A DNA stretch of 64,000 bases from Flavobacterium sp. ACN2 (GTDB lineage Bacteria > Bacteroidota > Bacteroidia > Flavobacteriales > Flavobacteriaceae). Below the pieces are notes generated by a model, which was not told the DNA's origin, did not search any database, and was given only the letters and a program-made list of their open reading frames with translations. The stretch covers positions 186,001 to 250,000 of the forward strand of contig NZ_MRCM01000005.1 in the NCBI RefSeq assembly GCF_002303885.1. The letters run 5' to 3'. This document shows, piece by piece, positions 2,972-59,147 of the stretch (position 1 is the first letter of the stretch; every line of letters begins with the position of its first letter). The translations under genes were made by a program, and so were the position numbers.

Positions 2972-3180
2972 AATACAAAATTCTAAATATTAAATTCCAA
3001 ATTCCAAATTCCAATCCCGAAGCCTAAGGATAAATTCCAAAAACTAAATTCCAAATTCCAATCCTGAAGCCTAAGCCTAAGGGCAAATTCCAAAAACTAA
3101 ATTCTAAATTCCAAATTCCAATATCAAGCCTAAGGACAAATTCTATATTCTATATTCTATATTCTTTACTCTTGCTTGCT
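2972..3180. repeat. Low-complexity repeat tract (AAATTCCAAATTCC / GAAGCCTAAGG)
   Basis: About 200 bp built of imperfect tandem copies of AAATTCCAAATTCCAAT, separated by GAAGCCTAAGGAYAAATTCC-like units repeated about three times, ending in TATATTCTATATTC runs. There is no coding frame. The unit length is irregular and there are no unique spacers of constant size, so it is not a CRISPR array. Related words recur at 46040-46135 and 56753-56905. Confidence 0.7.
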
Positions 3181-12209: not shown

Positions 12210-12448
12210 TTTATTTTTAGTTTTAAGATTAGACAAAAGAATTTTAGGCCAATGAAAAAGTCATTAGCGATATTGTTGTTTATAAAAGAAATTGGAGAGA
12301 AACTAGTCTTTTAGCCTTCAGAAAAAAGCAAAACTGTTTTCTTCAAAAATGGAATTCAAGAGTTCATAACTGGTGTACAAAATGGATTCTGCTTTCATAA
12401 TAAAGATTTTAATTGGATGATCTTAAACAGATTTACGGAGAAATCTTT

Positions 12449-12545
12449 CTTATCTGCCCGCACACAGCGGAAGGATTTAGCACCTTATTCGGCAACAGGT
12501 TGCTAAGACTTCAATGGGCCTATTCCCTCAGTCTTTCTGGATAAG
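12449..12545 (-). promoter_or_regulatory. SAM-I (S-box) riboswitch
   Basis: Read on the minus strand the segment begins CTTATCCAGAAAGACTGAGG and continues GGAATAGGCCCATTGAAG, CTTAGCAACC, GGTGCTAAATCC, a CCGC/GCGG hairpin and closing GATAAG. These are the S-box landmarks in order: P1 (CTTATC with GATAAG), the GAGGGA internal loop, the GGCCC pseudoknot partner, GCAACC, and the GGTGCTAAATCC P3/P4 strand. Just downstream AGATTT and AAATCT (12446-12441 and 12434-12429) can form a small hairpin, but no T-run follows, so control by translation or by a distal structure is possible. The controlled gene would be the TlpA-like one, 240 nt downstream. Confidence 0.94.
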
Positions 12546-12571
12546 TATCATTATATAAATTTTCTGTGATA

Positions 12572-53953: not shown

Positions 53954-54766
53954 TTACCAGCCTTTAACTGCTCCTCCTTTAAATTCTTGTTCAGCAGCTT
54001 TTTCTACTTCTGGAGATTGAAAAGCCTGTAAAAACTGTTTTACTTTTTCTTCGTTTTTATTGTCTTCGCGGCTTACCACCAAATTTACATAAGGAGAATC
54101 TTTGTCTTCAACAAACAAAGCATCACGAGATGGAACCAATCCTGCTGCAGAAGCAAAAGTATTGTTGATGATCGCAATAGACACATTCTGGTCGTCTAAA
54201 GCACGAGGCAATTGAGGTGCTTCTAATTCTAAGATTTTTAAGTTTTTAGGATTGCCAACAATGTCTGTTACTTTTGGCAATAAACCAACACCATCTTTCA
54301 ACTTCAATAATCCGTTTTTTTGTAGAAGCAATAACGAACGTCCTCCGTTTGTTGGATCATTTGGGATAATAATTGTGCTTTCGTTTTTCAATTCAGAAAG
54401 GCTTTTTATTTTTTTAGAATACCCAGCAATCGGATACACGAATGTATTCCCGATAATGGCTAATTTGTAACCTCTTTGTTTCGATTGCTCATCTAAATAC
54501 GGTTTGTGCTGAAATGCATTCGCATCGATATCACCCTGGCTCAAAGCTTCGTTTGGAATCACGTAATCGTTGAAAGAAACTAGTTCTACTTCCAATCCAT
54601 ATTTTTCTTTAGCTACTTTTTTAGCCGCTTCCGCCACTTTTAGTTCTGGACCAGAAGCCACACCTACTTTTATAAAATGAGGATCGTTATTTTTTTTGTT
54701 TCCGCAATTGGATAAAACAAGCGCCAAAGCCAAAACTCCAGCCGTTTTTAAAATATTAAGTTTCAT
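53954..54766 (-). CDS. metQ: MetQ/NlpA-family D/L-methionine-binding lipoprotein
   Basis: A 270-residue substrate-binding lipoprotein. Signal VLALALVLSNC places the lipid cysteine at residue 22. NlpA-type motifs: FIKVGVASGPELKVAEAAKK, YGLEVELVSFNDYVIPNEAL, GDIDANAFQHKPYLDEQSKQ, IIIPNDPTNGGRSLLLLQ and the end EQEFKGGAVKGW. It delivers methionine to the MetNI permease. Third gene of metN-metI-metQ, 45 bp after metI, and closed by a strong terminator. Confidence 0.94.
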   Translation of the reverse strand: MKLNILKTAGVLALALVLSNCGNKKNNDPHFIKVGVASGPELKVAEAAKKVAKEKYGLEVELVSFNDYVIPNEALSQGDIDANAFQHKPYLDEQSKQRGYKLAIIGNTFVYPIAGYSKKIKSLSELKNESTIIIPNDPTNGGRSLLLLQKNGLLKLKDGVGLLPKVTDIVGNPKNLKILELEAPQLPRALDDQNVSIAIINNTFASAAGLVPSRDALFVEDKDSPYVNLVVSREDNKNEEKVKQFLQAFQSPEVEKAAEQEFKGGAVKGW

Positions 54767-54811: not shown

Positions 54812-55465
54812 TTATCTATGATCGAATCGTTTTGATAATCTGTCTCCAGCAAACTGAATTACGAATACCAGAATAACCAATAAAGCCAAAACCGAGTTCA
54901 TTGTTACGGCATCATAACCAATATATCCGTATTGATACCCAACTTGTCCTAAACCACCTGCTCCAACAGCTCCTCCCATTGCAGAATATCCAACAAGAGT
55001 AATTAAAGTTATTGATGCTGCATTGATTAAAGAAGGCAAAGCTTCTGGCAATAATACTTTGTACACAATTTGTAAAGGAGTTGCACCCAATGCTCTCGCT
55101 GCTTCGATTAATCCCGACGGTAAGCCTAGCAAACTATTTTCTACCAAACGGGCAATAAACGGTGCTGCACCAATACTTAATGGAACCAAAGCGGCACTCA
55201 CACCAATAGAAGTCCCAACAATAGCGCGTGTAAACGGAATCATCCAAACGATTAAAATAATGAATGGAATAGAACGAAAAACGTTTACCACAACTGATAA
55301 TGTTCTGTTTAAAACCGGCTGTTCCAGAATCTGGTTTTTACGAGTTAAGAATAATAAAATTCCTGTTGGAAGTCCTAACAAAAACCCGAAAAAGCCCGAT
55401 ACAAAAGTCATAACAATGGTTTCCCATGTTCCTTTTAACAATAAATCTATAAGAGAATCAGACAT
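54812..55465 (-). CDS. metI: MetI methionine ABC-transporter permease
   Basis: A 217-residue inner-membrane permease with five helices ([94 protein letters not shown]). The coupling EAA-type loop [20 protein letters not shown] is clear. It overlaps the end of metN by 8 bp. Together with MetN and MetQ it imports methionine and related compounds. Confidence 0.95.
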
Positions 55466-56489
55466 AACCTATAATTTCTGTTTTAATATGTTTTGAATTA
55501 AAATATTGAATTGCAGCGTTGTAATTTTCGCGTTTCCCTGAAAGTTCAATCAGCATTACACCAAAATTCACTTCGCCAGCCTGATCCATTTGCGCGCTAA
55601 CGATTTTAAAATCGGTATCAAAAAGTCTTGAAACTTCTGAGATAACAGGTTCGTTAACTGATTTTCCTGTCATTTCCAGTTTCAATAACGGATTCAGATT
55701 TCCGTTGTCTTCTTTCTGCAATTTTTCCTGATAAACAGACGGAACTTCGATATGAAGCGAAGAAGAAATAAATTCTCTTGTTAGTTCATGTTTTGGGTCT
55801 GCAAAGATTTCGCCCACACTTCCCTGCTCAATTAATTTTCCGTGACTGATTACCGCTACTTCATCGCAAATTGATTTCACCACTTCCATTTGGTGTGTGA
55901 TCAGCAGGACCGTAATGTTAAGACGTTTGTTAATGTCTTTCAGTAAATTTAAAATCGATCTCGTTGTTGCAGGATCCAATGCACTTGTCGCTTCATCGCA
56001 CAGTAAAACTTTCGGATTATTGGCCAAAGTTCTTGCAATGGCAACTCTTTGTTTTTGTCCTCCCGAAAGACTTGCTGGATAATCATTGGCTTTTTCGGCC
56101 AATCCGACTAATTGCAATAATTCTAAAACGCGAGTTTTGATTTCGGTTTTTGGCGTTCCAGCCAATTCTAGCGGAAAAGCCACATTTTCGAAAACCGTTC
56201 TCGAAGAAAGTAAATTGAAATGTTGAAAAATCATTCCGATTTGTCTTCTTTCAATCGCCAATTCAGCATTTGACAACTGCATCAAAGCTTTTCCGTCAAC
56301 GATAATTTCGCCAGAAGTTGGTCTTTCCAACAAATTCACGCAGCGAATCAAAGTACTTTTTCCTGCTCCGGAAGTTCCAATTACACCAAAAATTTTCCCC
56401 TGAGGAACCCTTAGAGAGACATCAGACAAAGCAGCTACAATTCTGTCTTTCTGATGAAAAGTTTTGGTTACATTTTTTAATTCAATCAT
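55458..56489 (-). CDS. metN: MetN methionine ABC-transporter ATPase
   Basis: A 343-residue ABC ATPase. Walker [11 protein letters not shown]-loop [17 protein letters not shown], signature [16 protein letters not shown], Walker [13 protein letters not shown] and H-loop LLITHQMEV are all there. The C-terminal 90 residues form the NIL domain ([20 protein letters not shown]), the methionine sensor that mediates trans-inhibition in E. coli MetNI. It is the first structural gene of the operon; upstream a terminator hairpin and a Met/Cys-rich leader ORF indicate attenuation. Confidence 0.96.
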
Positions 56490-56501
56490 TCTTTACAGTT
56501 T

Positions 56502-56539
56502 AAAAAACAAAAAAGCCTTCCATTAATTAGTTGAAAGGC
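56502..56539 (-). terminator. Leader terminator (attenuator) of metNIQ
   Basis: Minus strand: GCCTTTC (56539-56533) and GGAAGGC (56521-56515) pair around AACTAATTAAT, with one irregular position, followed by TTTTTTGTTTTTTA. It stands between the leader ORF and metN, 13 bp ahead of the metN ATG, so transcription must pass it to reach the operon. Confidence 0.8.
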
Positions 56540-56570
56540 GTTTTCGAAATAAATTTTATCATTTTATATA

Positions 56571-56660
56571 TTAAGCCAGATCAATAAACACCATAACAGC
56601 ACCACAGCACATCATACTGCGACGATAATAATTATTCATTTTCTGGTTCTGTTTCTTCAT
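56571..56660 (-). CDS. 29-residue Met/Cys-rich leader peptide of metNIQ
   Basis: A short ORF starts with ATG at 56660 and ends in TAA at 56571. It reads MKKQNQKMNNYYRRS, then MMCCGAV, then MVFIDLA: five methionines and two cysteines among 29 residues, including four sulfur-residue codons in a row (ATG ATG TGC TGT, codons 16-19). A minus-strand -7 element ends 8 nt before the ATG. The stop is 31 nt before the terminator stem. GGCTT in the last codons could pair with AACGCC at the foot of the terminator, offering an antiterminator when the ribosome stalls upstream. Role as an attenuation leader is inferred; expression is not shown. Confidence 0.75.
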   Translation of the reverse strand: MKKQNQKMNNYYRRSMMCCGAVMVFIDLA

Positions 56661-56668
56661 AGCGAGTG

Positions 56669-56676
56669 CAAATTTA
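56669..56676 (-). promoter_or_regulatory. -7 element of the metNIQ leader transcript
   Basis: Minus-strand TAAATTTG fits TAnnTTTG. The start site would fall within about 0-5 nt of the leader ATG, making the leader mRNA nearly leaderless. No well-spaced TTG is evident. Confidence 0.55.
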
Positions 56677-56752
56677 AATAGTTATTTTCAATTTTAAGCT
56701 ATAAATTGTTAAAACTTTTATTAACCTATCAATTTAGTAGGTTATTTTTTTG

Positions 56753-56905
56753 AAATTCCAATATTTGAAATTCCAAATTCCAATCTTGAGAATCGAAATT
56801 TTATTTCAATTCAAAAAAAATCCAAATTCCAATTTGCCCGAGACTTCGGAATTGGAATTTGGAATTTTTATTCTTTGGAATTTCAAATTTCAAATATTGG
56901 AATTT
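56753..56905. repeat. Nested inverted repeat of AATTCCAAA words
   Basis: Outer arms 56753-56772 (AAATTCCAATATTTGAAATT) and 56886-56905 are perfect 20-bp complements. An inner pair CCAAATTCCAATT and AATTGGAATTTGG brackets TGCCCGAGACTTCGG. The element lies directly behind the propeller-lipoprotein gene and likely ends its transcript. It uses the same words as 2972-3180. Confidence 0.75.
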
Positions 56906-56913
56906 AAAAAAAA

Positions 56914-57918
56914 CTAGTTGTTTTGTTCCGCAATTACTGACTTATTCAACTTTATTATTCTGATTTTTTTATTGGTATTATCAGATAAGAAAATACGATC
57001 GTCAAGTTGTGCTGTTCCAACAATAGTTCCAAAAGCATTTTGCCCTAAAATATCAGAAACGCTTAAAGCTGCTTTATAATTCTTTTTAATGAACTCTTCT
57101 TTTGGATATAATTTTAAATAAGATGCACTTCCAACATTTTCTGAAGTAACTGCCCAATCTTTGCTAAAAGATACTGCAATTGGCTTAACGTCTACAAATT
57201 GCACTTTTTCTGGCTCGATAGGAGTTGTTAACGAAGCTGCAGCGTTGGCTTTAATATTGGCAATATTATAATATAAATAGCTTTTGGCATCTCTTCCTCC
57301 TACAACCAAATTTCCATCATAAACATCCAATGAATATATTTCTGTATATCCGTTTAAAGTATTCAATTTGGCAATAGGCTTTAAATTCCAATCGCTTGTT
57401 TCTGTAATTTGAGTAGCGTCAAGAACTTTTATGCTCTTTTCTTTTTCTTTTACAAACACCAATCCGTCTTTTGCTACAACGCCAAAAACGTGCACAAAAG
57501 TCTGCCACCACTGGCCATTTCCAACAGTACTAATTCCAGCATTTGTAATCTCATCAAAAACAAATAATCTCGATTCTGTACTACCAACGTAAATACGGCC
57601 AGCATCAACAGAAACCGATGTTAAACTTGTTAGCGCAATAGTTGTGTTTCCTTTTTTATATTCTTTTATTGTTTTAATATGTTCTAAAGTCAGAGCATTA
57701 AAAATCTCTAATACATTTCCGTTAATCACATACAATTTTTCATTTGCAATAGTAATTCCTTTTGGATCAAATGCTTCTGTGCTTCCTGGAATATTTTCGT
57801 TTGTAATAGAAGCTTCATCAGTCGGATAATAATAGGTATAATCTTTAGATGCTGGATCGTCTTTACTGCAACTTGTAAACAAACAAATTGCTAAAATTAG
57901 GGGCAGAATATGTTTCAT
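56914..57918 (-). CDS. Lipoprotein with beta-propeller-like repeats, unknown function
   Basis: About 334 residues from MKHILPLILAICLFTSCSKDD, a lipoprotein signal with cysteine at residue 17; an earlier ATG at 57942 would overlap the upstream gene and add only eight residues. The mature protein has recurring strand patterns with Asp/Gly turns: KGITIANEKLYVINGNVLEIF, SVSVDAGRIYVGSTESRLFVF, VVAKDGLVFVKEKEKSIKVL, SLDVYDGNLVVGGRDAKSYL. This suggests a beta-propeller. It follows the metzincin-like lipoprotein gene by 14 bp and is likely its partner. I know no named family with certainty. Confidence 0.75.
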   Translation of the reverse strand: MKHILPLILAICLFTSCSKDDPASKDYTYYYPTDEASITNENIPGSTEAFDPKGITIANEKLYVINGNVLEIFNALTLEHIKTIKEYKKGNTTIALTSLTSVSVDAGRIYVGSTESRLFVFDEITNAGISTVGNGQWWQTFVHVFGVVAKDGLVFVKEKEKSIKVLDATQITETSDWNLKPIAKLNTLNGYTEIYSLDVYDGNLVVGGRDAKSYLYYNIANIKANAAASLTTPIEPEKVQFVDVKPIAVSFSKDWAVTSENVGSASYLKLYPKEEFIKKNYKAALSVSDILGQNAFGTIVGTAQLDDRIFLSDNTNKKIRIIKLNKSVIAEQNN

Positions 57919-57932
57919 GTGTAGTTTATGTT

Positions 57933-59147
57933 TTAGTTCCATTTTCCTTCGCCTTTATATTTTAGCAAAAATGGATTTTTAGGATTAACAGTAAATACTG
58001 GTTTCTTGTAAGTTCCTTTTACGTAAGCTGTTTTTGAATACGTTTTTAAAACGTCTGGATCTGTAAACGGAAGATCATTTAAATAAATTAAGTATTTATA
58101 AAAATGAGTAAGCATTTCCTGCTGGCCTCCGCCTTCGCCGCTATTCGCCAAATTACTGCTGTGGTTAAAACCAATATGATGCGAATATTCGTGAGACCAA
58201 ACCGACATTTCTCCAACCCAATGTCCGGTTACATAACCCGATTCCCATTGCGATGCCAGATTTCCTCCGCCCCAAGCAGAATCTCCTCCAACCATTGCCA
58301 GCCACACGGTTCTTTTATCTAGATAATTCCAGTATATTTTTTCGATTTCTTCTTTAGAATAATAATCGTAAACACCCTCTACATCATCAGCATTTCCGTG
58401 CCAGTTTAAAGCGCCGTTTATAGCTGTTCCTGCTGTCGCTGCCTGTTCTTGTTTGTATTTGTCAAAATTGGTAAAAGTGTCATAATACATAGGATGGCTT
58501 AAGGCATAAGAATAATTAATAATCATGGTAATTGCTTCTTTTGCCAATGCAGGATTCATCGGAAGAAATTTACCCAGTTCATTAATATGGTATCCGTCAT
58601 GAAACTGAACTAAATGATTTGATTTTATTTTTTTGAATTTTTTAAACAAAGGATCATCTGATTCTACAGAAAATTCGATCGCTCCAGATGAAAATCCTTC
58701 AATTTTATCGATCGTTACTGTGTTTCCTGTTTCTAACAGATAATCGTTTTTTTGCTCTGTCAAAGGAATTTTATGAAAAGAACGGTGAAAAGCAGGAACT
58801 TTTGAAAAACTATAAAGCAAAAACTTTTTATCGTAATTAGGCAATTTTGCATACACTTTTACGTCTGTTAATCCAACTGGAGAATAAAGCGAAATTTGTA
58901 CAGAATCTTTTCCTTTTTGAATAATTTGAAACGGTTCGTTTACTCTAAACCAACGATCTGTTTTGTCATACATTTTTGAAGGACTTTCGTCATCTTCAAA
59001 CATGGTCATTGGTTTATTTTCTGCTGGTAAAGCCGAAGCATCTATGCTTGCTAGGTAATTTGGCTTGTAGTTTTCGCCATCGTCACTACATCCAAAAATA
59101 ATACTTGCCAATAGGGCAAATACAAAAAAGTGAGTGTTTTTTCTCAT
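57933..59147 (-). CDS. Metzincin-like zinc metalloprotease lipoprotein
   Basis: A 404-residue lipoprotein. Signal FFVFALLASIIFGCSDDGEN with cysteine at residue 20. The key motif is HEYSHHIGFNH, an HExxHxxGxxH zinc-binding signature of metzincins, at about residue 315, preceded by GGNLASQWESGYVTGHW. The N-terminal 190 residues resemble a M60-like or lipoprotein attachment module (RWFRVNEPFQIIQKGKDSVQ, DVKVYAKLPNYDKKFLLYS). A full Bacteroidota promoter stands upstream. Substrate unknown: surface proteins, glycoproteins or mucin-like material are possible. The next gene, a propeller-type lipoprotein, is in the same operon. Confidence 0.82.
   Translation of the reverse strand: MRKNTHFFVFALLASIIFGCSDDGENYKPNYLASIDASALPAENKPMTMFEDDESPSKMYDKTDRWFRVNEPFQIIQKGKDSVQISLYSPVGLTDVKVYAKLPNYDKKFLLYSFSKVPAFHRSFHKIPLTEQKNDYLLETGNTVTIDKIEGFSSGAIEFSVESDDPLFKKFKKIKSNHLVQFHDGYHINELGKFLPMNPALAKEAITMIINYSYALSHPMYYDTFTNFDKYKQEQAATAGTAINGALNWHGNADDVEGVYDYYSKEEIEKIYWNYLDKRTVWLAMVGGDSAWGGGNLASQWESGYVTGHWVGEMSVWSHEYSHHIGFNHSSNLANSGEGGGQQEMLTHFYKYLIYLNDLPFTDPDVLKTYSKTAYVKGTYKKPVFTVNPKNPFLLKYKGEGKWN

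Follow-up and report, generated by a model that had tools for sequence, protein, structure and literature searches.

The leaders trpL and hisL of Escherichia coli combine an open reading frame (ORF) holding control codons, three alternating pairings, a stop codon at region 2 and an intrinsic terminator. Methionine genes are controlled by SAM riboswitches and T-boxes, which bind SAM or tRNA directly. A T-box placed before a methionine transporter is described in the relevant part of PMC2965389. In Streptomyces lividans TK24, metL is a leaderless leader of 29 amino acids before metNIQ; its peptide ends GARCMCRRMCAF and has three cysteines besides methionine, and in the portion of the article that treats it, the authors refer to methionine and threonine and note the lack of a typical Rho-independent terminator (PMC8079986). 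In Campylobacter jejuni, a translated MetL and a Met-rich small ORF (sORF) before Cj0772c have the support of ribosome profiling (PMC11955535), and in Rhodobacterales the uORFC-8-2 motif upstream of cysS is presented as a Cys-codon attenuator (PMC8632094). Cys-rich leader ORFs are described for the cys and cbs operons of actinobacteria (PMC1262725), and translation attenuation of cysteine genes is mentioned for M. smegmatis (PMC13236596). For Flavobacterium psychrophilum, leader-peptide attenuators have been suggested (PMC9723704), and leader-like sORFs are reported for Bacteroides thetaiotaomicron (PMC7366714).

The initial annotation of the locus presented here knew of no flavobacterial case for methionine uptake. 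This stands, given that no leader of such a kind at metNIQ in Bacteroidota was found among the literature matches listed, which stop short of the 64-leader supplement of PMC9723704; what has to be added is that leader peptides have been published in other phyla.

The leader locus and its distribution

The window, that is, the whole stretch of 64,000 nucleotides of Flavobacterium sp. ACN2 DNA that was analysed, carries on its minus strand a -7 box, a 29-codon ORF, an AU hairpin, a stem with a T-run and the genes metN-metI-metQ, in this order. The elements that had been pointed out at first (the ORF with its Met-Met-Cys-Cys codons, the -7 element, and the terminator with its T-run before metN) are all present on this strand. 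The -7 promoter element TAAATTTG (56669-56676) matches the consensus TAHHTTTG (PMC6847099) and is separated from the leader ATG by 8 nt. If transcription starts the usual 4-5 nt after the box, the 5' UTR would be about 3-4 nt long and the mRNA nearly leaderless; such a predicted start site, 3-4 nt before the AUG, is unusual. The leader ORF (56571-56660) runs from the ATG at 56660 through 29 codons to a TAA at 56573-56571, with Met16, Met17, Cys18 and Cys19 encoded by ATG ATG TGC TGT (56604-56615). Region 1, CCAGA (56642-56646), extends from the end of codon 5 to the start of codon 7 and is the predicted partner of region 2 when no ribosome is present. Region 2, TCTGGCTT (56573-56580), is found at the end of the ORF, where it would be masked by a ribosome sitting on the leader stop codon. 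The AU hairpin (56547-56564) lies between regions 2 and 3. The terminator is formed by region 3, GCCTTTCA (56532-56539), as the 5' arm, preceded here by AAC and in relatives by AA or AG, by region 4, TGGAAGGC (56515-56522), as the 3' arm, and by the T-run TTTTTTGTTTTTT (56502-56514). A mechanical scan called no terminator at this leader, probably because it permits loops of up to 8 nt and the loop here has 9 nt. The three genes that follow on the same strand all score above their NCBIfam cut-offs: metN (55458-56489; TIGR02314, 550 bits versus 499.7), metI (54812-55465; NF008049, 386 bits versus 212) and a metQ-type lipoprotein gene (53954-54766; NF008285, 435 bits versus 374).

Upstream of the leader, two genes (342 and 404 aa; 56914-59147, minus strand) have no Pfam match at an E-value of 0.001. 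AT-rich inverted repeats of the AATTGGAATTTGGAATTT kind are located at 56745-56913 and 2992-3123, with eight matches (up to two mismatches) in the window versus 0.06 expected by chance, and repeats resembling them also adjoin some leaders in other genomes. Elsewhere in the window, a SAM-I riboswitch (12447-12547, minus strand; 78.4 bits), the sole Rfam match at gathering level, lies ahead of two genes, one for a thioredoxin-like protein with AhpC-TSA and DUF4369 domains (12236-11217) and one for a class V aminotransferase (11132-9660). As targets of a SAM riboswitch, these two genes are odd.

When the 29-residue peptide was used as the query, 18 of 150 genus genomes, among them that of the window, had a match at E < 4e-4; one peptide match (L026) turned out to be unrelated once its sequence was read. 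A fairer denominator is provided by the MetI search, which found metI in 75 of 398 genus genomes. Leader and terminator precede metN in 62 of the 74 metI-bearing genomes that are readable, L104 being left out given that its contig ends 21 nt upstream of metN. The other 12 (L102, L103 and L105-L114) have no leader within 600 nt by script or 215 nt by eye, and carry a divergent metNIQ, with a metI identity of at most 88%. Because the motif used to find the leaders, AAATTTG-N(3-9)-ATG, itself contains the -7 box, part of the constancy of this box is built in; the 62 leaders nonetheless all have a spacer of 8 nt between box and ATG, where the motif permitted 3-9 nt.

Named genomes gave at least 80 metI loci. 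Among the 80 listed, 52 (L115-L166) have a leader of the window type, all eight Chryseobacterium loci and three other flavobacteria (L169, L178 and L179) have unlike Cys-bearing leaders, 16 have no leader, and the upstream region of L168 is unreadable. The genus and named sets combined hold 114 leaders of the window type, 75 of them distinct. Alignment A1, on which the pairings were evaluated, comprises 61 of 62 rows (60 distinct), L043 being left out as identical to L042. At the family level, metI was found in 2 of 397 genomes, both from the window's genus, and therefore no new genus was gained. The comparison across genomes confirms that the leader before metNIQ is real, conserved and more than chance.

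In an order-level sample of 296 genomes, metI is present in 43 genomes from 4 of 90 genera; ten Flavobacterium genomes of this sample were left out of the leader reading. The genus g241 is here called Chryseobacterium, since its leader and sequences match the named Chryseobacterium loci. In it, 26 of 27 metNIQ operons start with another Cys- and Met-bearing leader, the contig of G829 ending too early. This leader, of the MMMYCCMP type, is directly before metN in 13 genomes, and in 13 further genomes the leader precedes another gene that stands before metN. This intervening gene looks like that of L190, which is an EamA-type transporter according to Pfam; for the other loci the likeness was judged by eye. 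An EamA-like gene lies between leader and metN in L190, L193, L179 (F. cerinum) and L240-L252, so that leader and operon stay together while the first gene changes. Short leaders with CC (e.g., MLKFVCCIRFI) are found in all five genomes of g277, and the single genome of g299 (L238) has no leader by eye.

Predicted alternative pairings of the leader RNA

All 61 rows of A1 carry GGCT in region 2 and GCCTTTC in region 3 without change. When the RNA is folded up to region 2, CCAG of codons 5-6 pairs with CUGG (1:2) with P > 0.5 in 56 of the 60 distinct leaders, the four failures being L064, L079, L087 and L093, and the mean P is 0.93, versus 0.50 in controls with permuted codon order between the two regions. 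Including region 3 in the fold lowers the count to 47 of 60. This first pairing is an addition to the earlier reading of the locus. In the alignment, 77.4% of the 1:2 cells are paired versus at most 53.7% in slid controls, and the covariation score also stands out; at 6 pairs and 16 cells, double changes are not distinct from those of the slid controls (up to 5 pairs and up to 27 cells). A tree-aware test of region 1 versus region 2 is not significant (2 same, 0 opposite, 1 none; p 0.5), given that there are too few changes. According to the folds, AUACCA pairs with UGGUAU in one subgroup and AUGAA with UUCAU in the others. The terminator is the sole structure that RNAalifold called on the full alignment, and 1:2 was probably missed because the register of this helix shifts between subgroups.

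With the ribosome stalled and arm 4 not yet transcribed, GGCUU is predicted to pair with AAGCC (2:3) with P > 0.5 in 58 of 60 leaders (mean 0.96), and in the alignment 98.0% of the 2:3 cells are paired. Covariation of 2:3 is absent in Flavobacterium because the pairing hardly varies, and its paired percentage was reached by 248 of 500 shuffles. The terminator is paired in 99.3% of the cells over the 60 distinct rows, and its T-run is present. Once arm 4 is available, the terminator always wins at equilibrium, which means that the switch must be kinetic.

The position of the stop codon follows region 2. In all 60 distinct leaders it falls between -10 and +10 nt relative to GGCT, and in the 9 of 52 named leaders where it begins 6-10 nt before GGCT, the GGCT is still kept; the class of stop shows at least seven changes on the metN-metI tree. 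With a ribosome footprint assumed to reach 12 nt beyond the A-site codon, the leading edge of a ribosome at the stop would be 2-22 nt past the start of GGCT.

It had been proposed at first that the last leader codons (GGCTT) pair with the foot of the window's terminator (AACGCC). This pairing is found in relatives, as GGCTT with AAGCC, and not in the window, which has AACGCC where relatives mostly have AAGCC and for which the usual 2:3 is not predicted (P 0.00). The substitution breaks GGCTT:AAGCC and also takes one pair from the terminator, which has -13.4 kcal/mol versus a mean of -16.2. The same change permits a substitute, GGUGUUU:AAACGCC, in the stalled-state fold (-8.2 kcal/mol), where seven pairs join 56592-56586 with 56543-56537; GGTGTTT (56586-56592, minus strand) is the predicted substitute antiterminator strand of this copy. 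The antiterminator of the window thus seems to have shifted to another pairing, and this copy may have been rewired locally or may be a switch that has weakened.

The Chryseobacterium-type leaders reach a comparable arrangement with other sequences. Region 2 consists of GUGGU at the stop and CCUU, and faces ACCAC and AAGG of the terminator arm. This antiterminator is paired in 90.1% of the cells of alignment A2 (19 rows of 21, the duplicates L207 and L211 being removed and 13 later leaders not included) versus at most 55.0% in slid controls, and these counts are lowered by the misalignment of L189, L210, L213 and L228, where region 2 is three nt upstream. In L229, L237 and L239, GGAGU with ACUCC replaces GUGGU/ACCAC, with two pairs changed on both sides. 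The six double-changed cells were reached by 0 of 500 shuffles and the two double-changed pairs by 97 of 500, and the changes in these three leaders are probably one event. With the ribosome stalled at CMP, all 32 distinct leaders (from 34 loci, with two duplicates) have at least nine expected pairs between the stop region and the terminator arm. In g277, CUUUCAU of the terminator has its complement, AUGAAG, close to the stop. For a stalled ribosome, the antiterminator is predicted as the best fold of L232, L233 and L235 and as a partial one of L236, and it does not appear in L234. The leaders of L169 (F. subsaxonicum) and L178 (F. zepuense) have CCC plus CC and are followed by terminators. 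Folding of these two gave no antiterminator over the terminator arm; a hairpin of the GTATAG/CTATAC type lies beside the arm and not over it, and the switch of L169 and L178 may for this reason work differently.

Control codons and the signal that is probably read

A Cys codon is in frame in all 75 distinct Flavobacterium leaders, with CC in 63, and Cys was not a requirement in the leader searches. In the first set of 60 distinct leaders, there is one Cys in 5 leaders, two in 27, three in 26 and four in 2. Non-start Met codons number from 1 to 6 per leader in all 60, with MMCC in 38, MCC in 49 and Met adjoining Cys in 55. GGCT is present in every one of the 75 leaders. The last central Cys was taken as the final one found 19-36 nt from GGCT; it precedes GGCT by 22-32 nt, and these distances do not all agree modulo 3. 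Five of the 75 (L068, L071, L098, L101 and L148) have no Met among the four codons that lead up to the central Cys; two further leaders flagged by the script are not counted, given that MM or IM directly precedes their Cys and that an earlier Cys alone had triggered the flag. According to these counts, it is Cys, and not Met, that is constant in Flavobacterium. The initial annotation had taken Met and Cys together as the signal, and both are indeed present, with Cys the more constant of the two in this genus (0 of 75 leaders lack it). In Chryseobacterium, MM and CMP occur in all 19 and in all 13 distinct leaders, and Met is therefore as constant there as Cys.

From these codons and pairings, we find it probable that the leader is a ribosome-mediated transcription attenuator that reads charged cysteinyl-tRNA and methionyl-tRNA and so sets the expression of metNIQ. 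Judging from the promoter, the transcript would begin within a few nt of the leader AUG. In the absence of a ribosome, CCAG of codons 5-6 and CUGG would pair (1:2) and the terminator (3:4) would form. With Cys and Met in ample supply, the ribosome would reach the stop, at most 10 nt from GGCU, and hide region 2, and the terminator would form as well. When Cys (or Met) is short, the ribosome would pause at Met-Met-Cys-Cys and hold 1:2 apart, and this pause would free GGCUU for AAGCC (2:3) before arm 4 is made, allowing RNA polymerase to continue into metNIQ. The general proposal of a sulfur-amino-acid leader peptide and attenuator before metNIQ, with which the analysis started, is what comparison, folding and gene context support best.

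The same attenuator could have methionine as its main signal, as the substrate of the operon suggests, with the Cys codons as auxiliaries. This is in line with the non-start Met of all 60 leaders, with the Met directly before Cys in 55 of them, with the MM and CMP of every Chryseobacterium-type leader, and with the fact that the authors of the published methionine-transport leaders, in the passages that describe them, call theirs methionine leaders. Nonetheless, the five Flavobacterium leaders without Met before the central Cys speak against it, as do two leaders of g277, L232, which has CC with the start Met only, and L235, which has one more Met. We consider a main role of methionine rather unlikely.

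A translation-independent element, either a riboswitch or an ordinary partial terminator, in which the ORF is incidental, would account for the strong RNA structure under sequence constraint and for the lack of selection at the peptide level. The in-frame pN/pS of the leader is 0.54 over 177 close pairs and 0.67 over the 44 nearest pairs; with 0.58-0.72 in the other frames, the in-frame value is not clearly lower, and purifying selection on the whole peptide is not visible. The conserved peptide with synonymous changes that the initial annotation had proposed as a check is thus not seen over the full length, and what is kept is the open frame and the control codons. This pattern fits a leader where only the control codons and the RNA matter. 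Against an incidental ORF, frame 0 is free of stops from the ATG to the control codons in 75 of 75 leaders, with stops in frame 1 in 75 and in frame 2 in 74 (counts that share conserved sequence and are not independent), Cys is always in frame, the position of the stop is tied to region 2, and the unlike leaders of other genera keep Cys codons. Moreover, no Rfam family reaches its gathering score at the leader, the best weak match having 23.1 bits versus the 65 needed; Rfam lists no SAM riboswitch (S-box) for 56480-56740 up to an E-value of 5, and no T-box at gathering level or in the relaxed search. An element that works without translation is therefore very unlikely.

It is also highly improbable that the nascent peptide itself acts, either as an arrest peptide or through a CC motif that senses metal or redox state, rather than codon starvation. 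Cys pairs are known metal ligands, which would suit such a role, but the residues around CC vary, single-Cys forms occur (YC, CY, CR and CW), and, with the pN/pS values above, neither purifying selection nor the conserved peptide near the stall site that would mark an arrest peptide is seen. Short ORFs abound in the mechanical ORF list, and this one could lie by chance ahead of an ordinary terminator close to the promoter; such a coincidence is practically dismissed by the presence of the leader in 62 of 74 readable genus genomes and its recurrence in two further genera.

If the attenuator of Cys and Met codons works as proposed, transcription and translation in Bacteroidota would be coupled closely enough for a ribosome to steer termination. 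Bacteroidota are without Shine-Dalgarno sequences. Given that the ribosome must trail RNA polymerase closely, these leaders would be ready-made reporters of coupling for this phylum. The metNIQ importer of many Flavobacterium and Chryseobacterium species gains a proposed, testable control switch, with its terminator and antiterminator, and the constant Cys codons before a methionine importer suggest that published methionine leaders elsewhere merit re-examination for cysteine. The presence of unlike leaders ahead of one operon also makes a good system for the study of attenuator origin and partner change. It is conceivable, and put forward here tentatively, that a dual sulfur-amino-acid attenuator with its ORF at the 5' end has arisen several times before the same operon, in Flavobacterium, in Chryseobacterium, in a third genus and perhaps in Streptomyces.

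Comparison with known leaders

With trpL and hisL, the leader shares a control-codon ORF, alternating pairings, a stop at region 2 and a terminator. An operon of related function is preceded by a short ORF that sits between the promoter and a terminator; the in-frame control codons of this ORF specify a related amino acid (Cys in 75 of 75 leaders); an intrinsic terminator with a T-run follows; 1:2 would protect the terminator without translation, with modest covariation; 2:3 and the terminator are mutually exclusive in the folds (58 of 60); and the stop is placed so that a terminating ribosome would mask region 2 in 60 of 60 leaders under the assumed footprint. These are the defining features that sequence can address, and they support the view that the leader would work like a trp-type attenuator. 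Unlike in trpL and hisL, the operon here encodes an importer, the control codons are mixed Cys and Met codons, the AUG is almost at the promoter, and the organism belongs to Bacteroidota. SAM riboswitches and T-boxes are likewise RNA leaders that control methionine uptake, but neither family is matched by Rfam at this leader.

Among leaders of sulfur genes, uORFC-8-2 is alike by its description, with the tandem Cys codons of a short ORF lying within the first stem and an intrinsic terminator after it; it differs, on the same description, in that it precedes cysS, for cysteinyl-tRNA synthetase, in another phylum and that no Met codons are mentioned. The actinobacterial cys and cbs leaders resemble the present one in their runs of Cys codons upstream of sulfur genes, whereas for the Mycobacterium cases the pertinent part of PMC1262725 gives no conserved terminator hairpins. 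The attenuators suggested for F. psychrophilum belong to the same genus and share, as they are outlined, the leader peptide and the control of transcription elongation; they concern amino acid biosynthesis operons, and the words 'methionine' and 'metN' do not occur in the main text of PMC9723704.

In C. jejuni, the leader candidate is also just before a methionine-transport substrate-binding gene (Cj0772c), in another phylum; the word 'cysteine' is absent from the main text of PMC11955535, where, as far as that text goes, the mechanism is not worked out. The metL of S. lividans, likened here by its printed peptide alone, has the same length of 29 amino acids, the same operon, and both Met and Cys, with CMC and MC near its end. 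It differs in belonging to Actinobacteria and, in the portion of the article that describes it, in that cysteine is not named and no alternative pairings are given. As far as these published descriptions extend, the leader has relatives in other phyla and joins a known class of methionine-transporter leader peptides.
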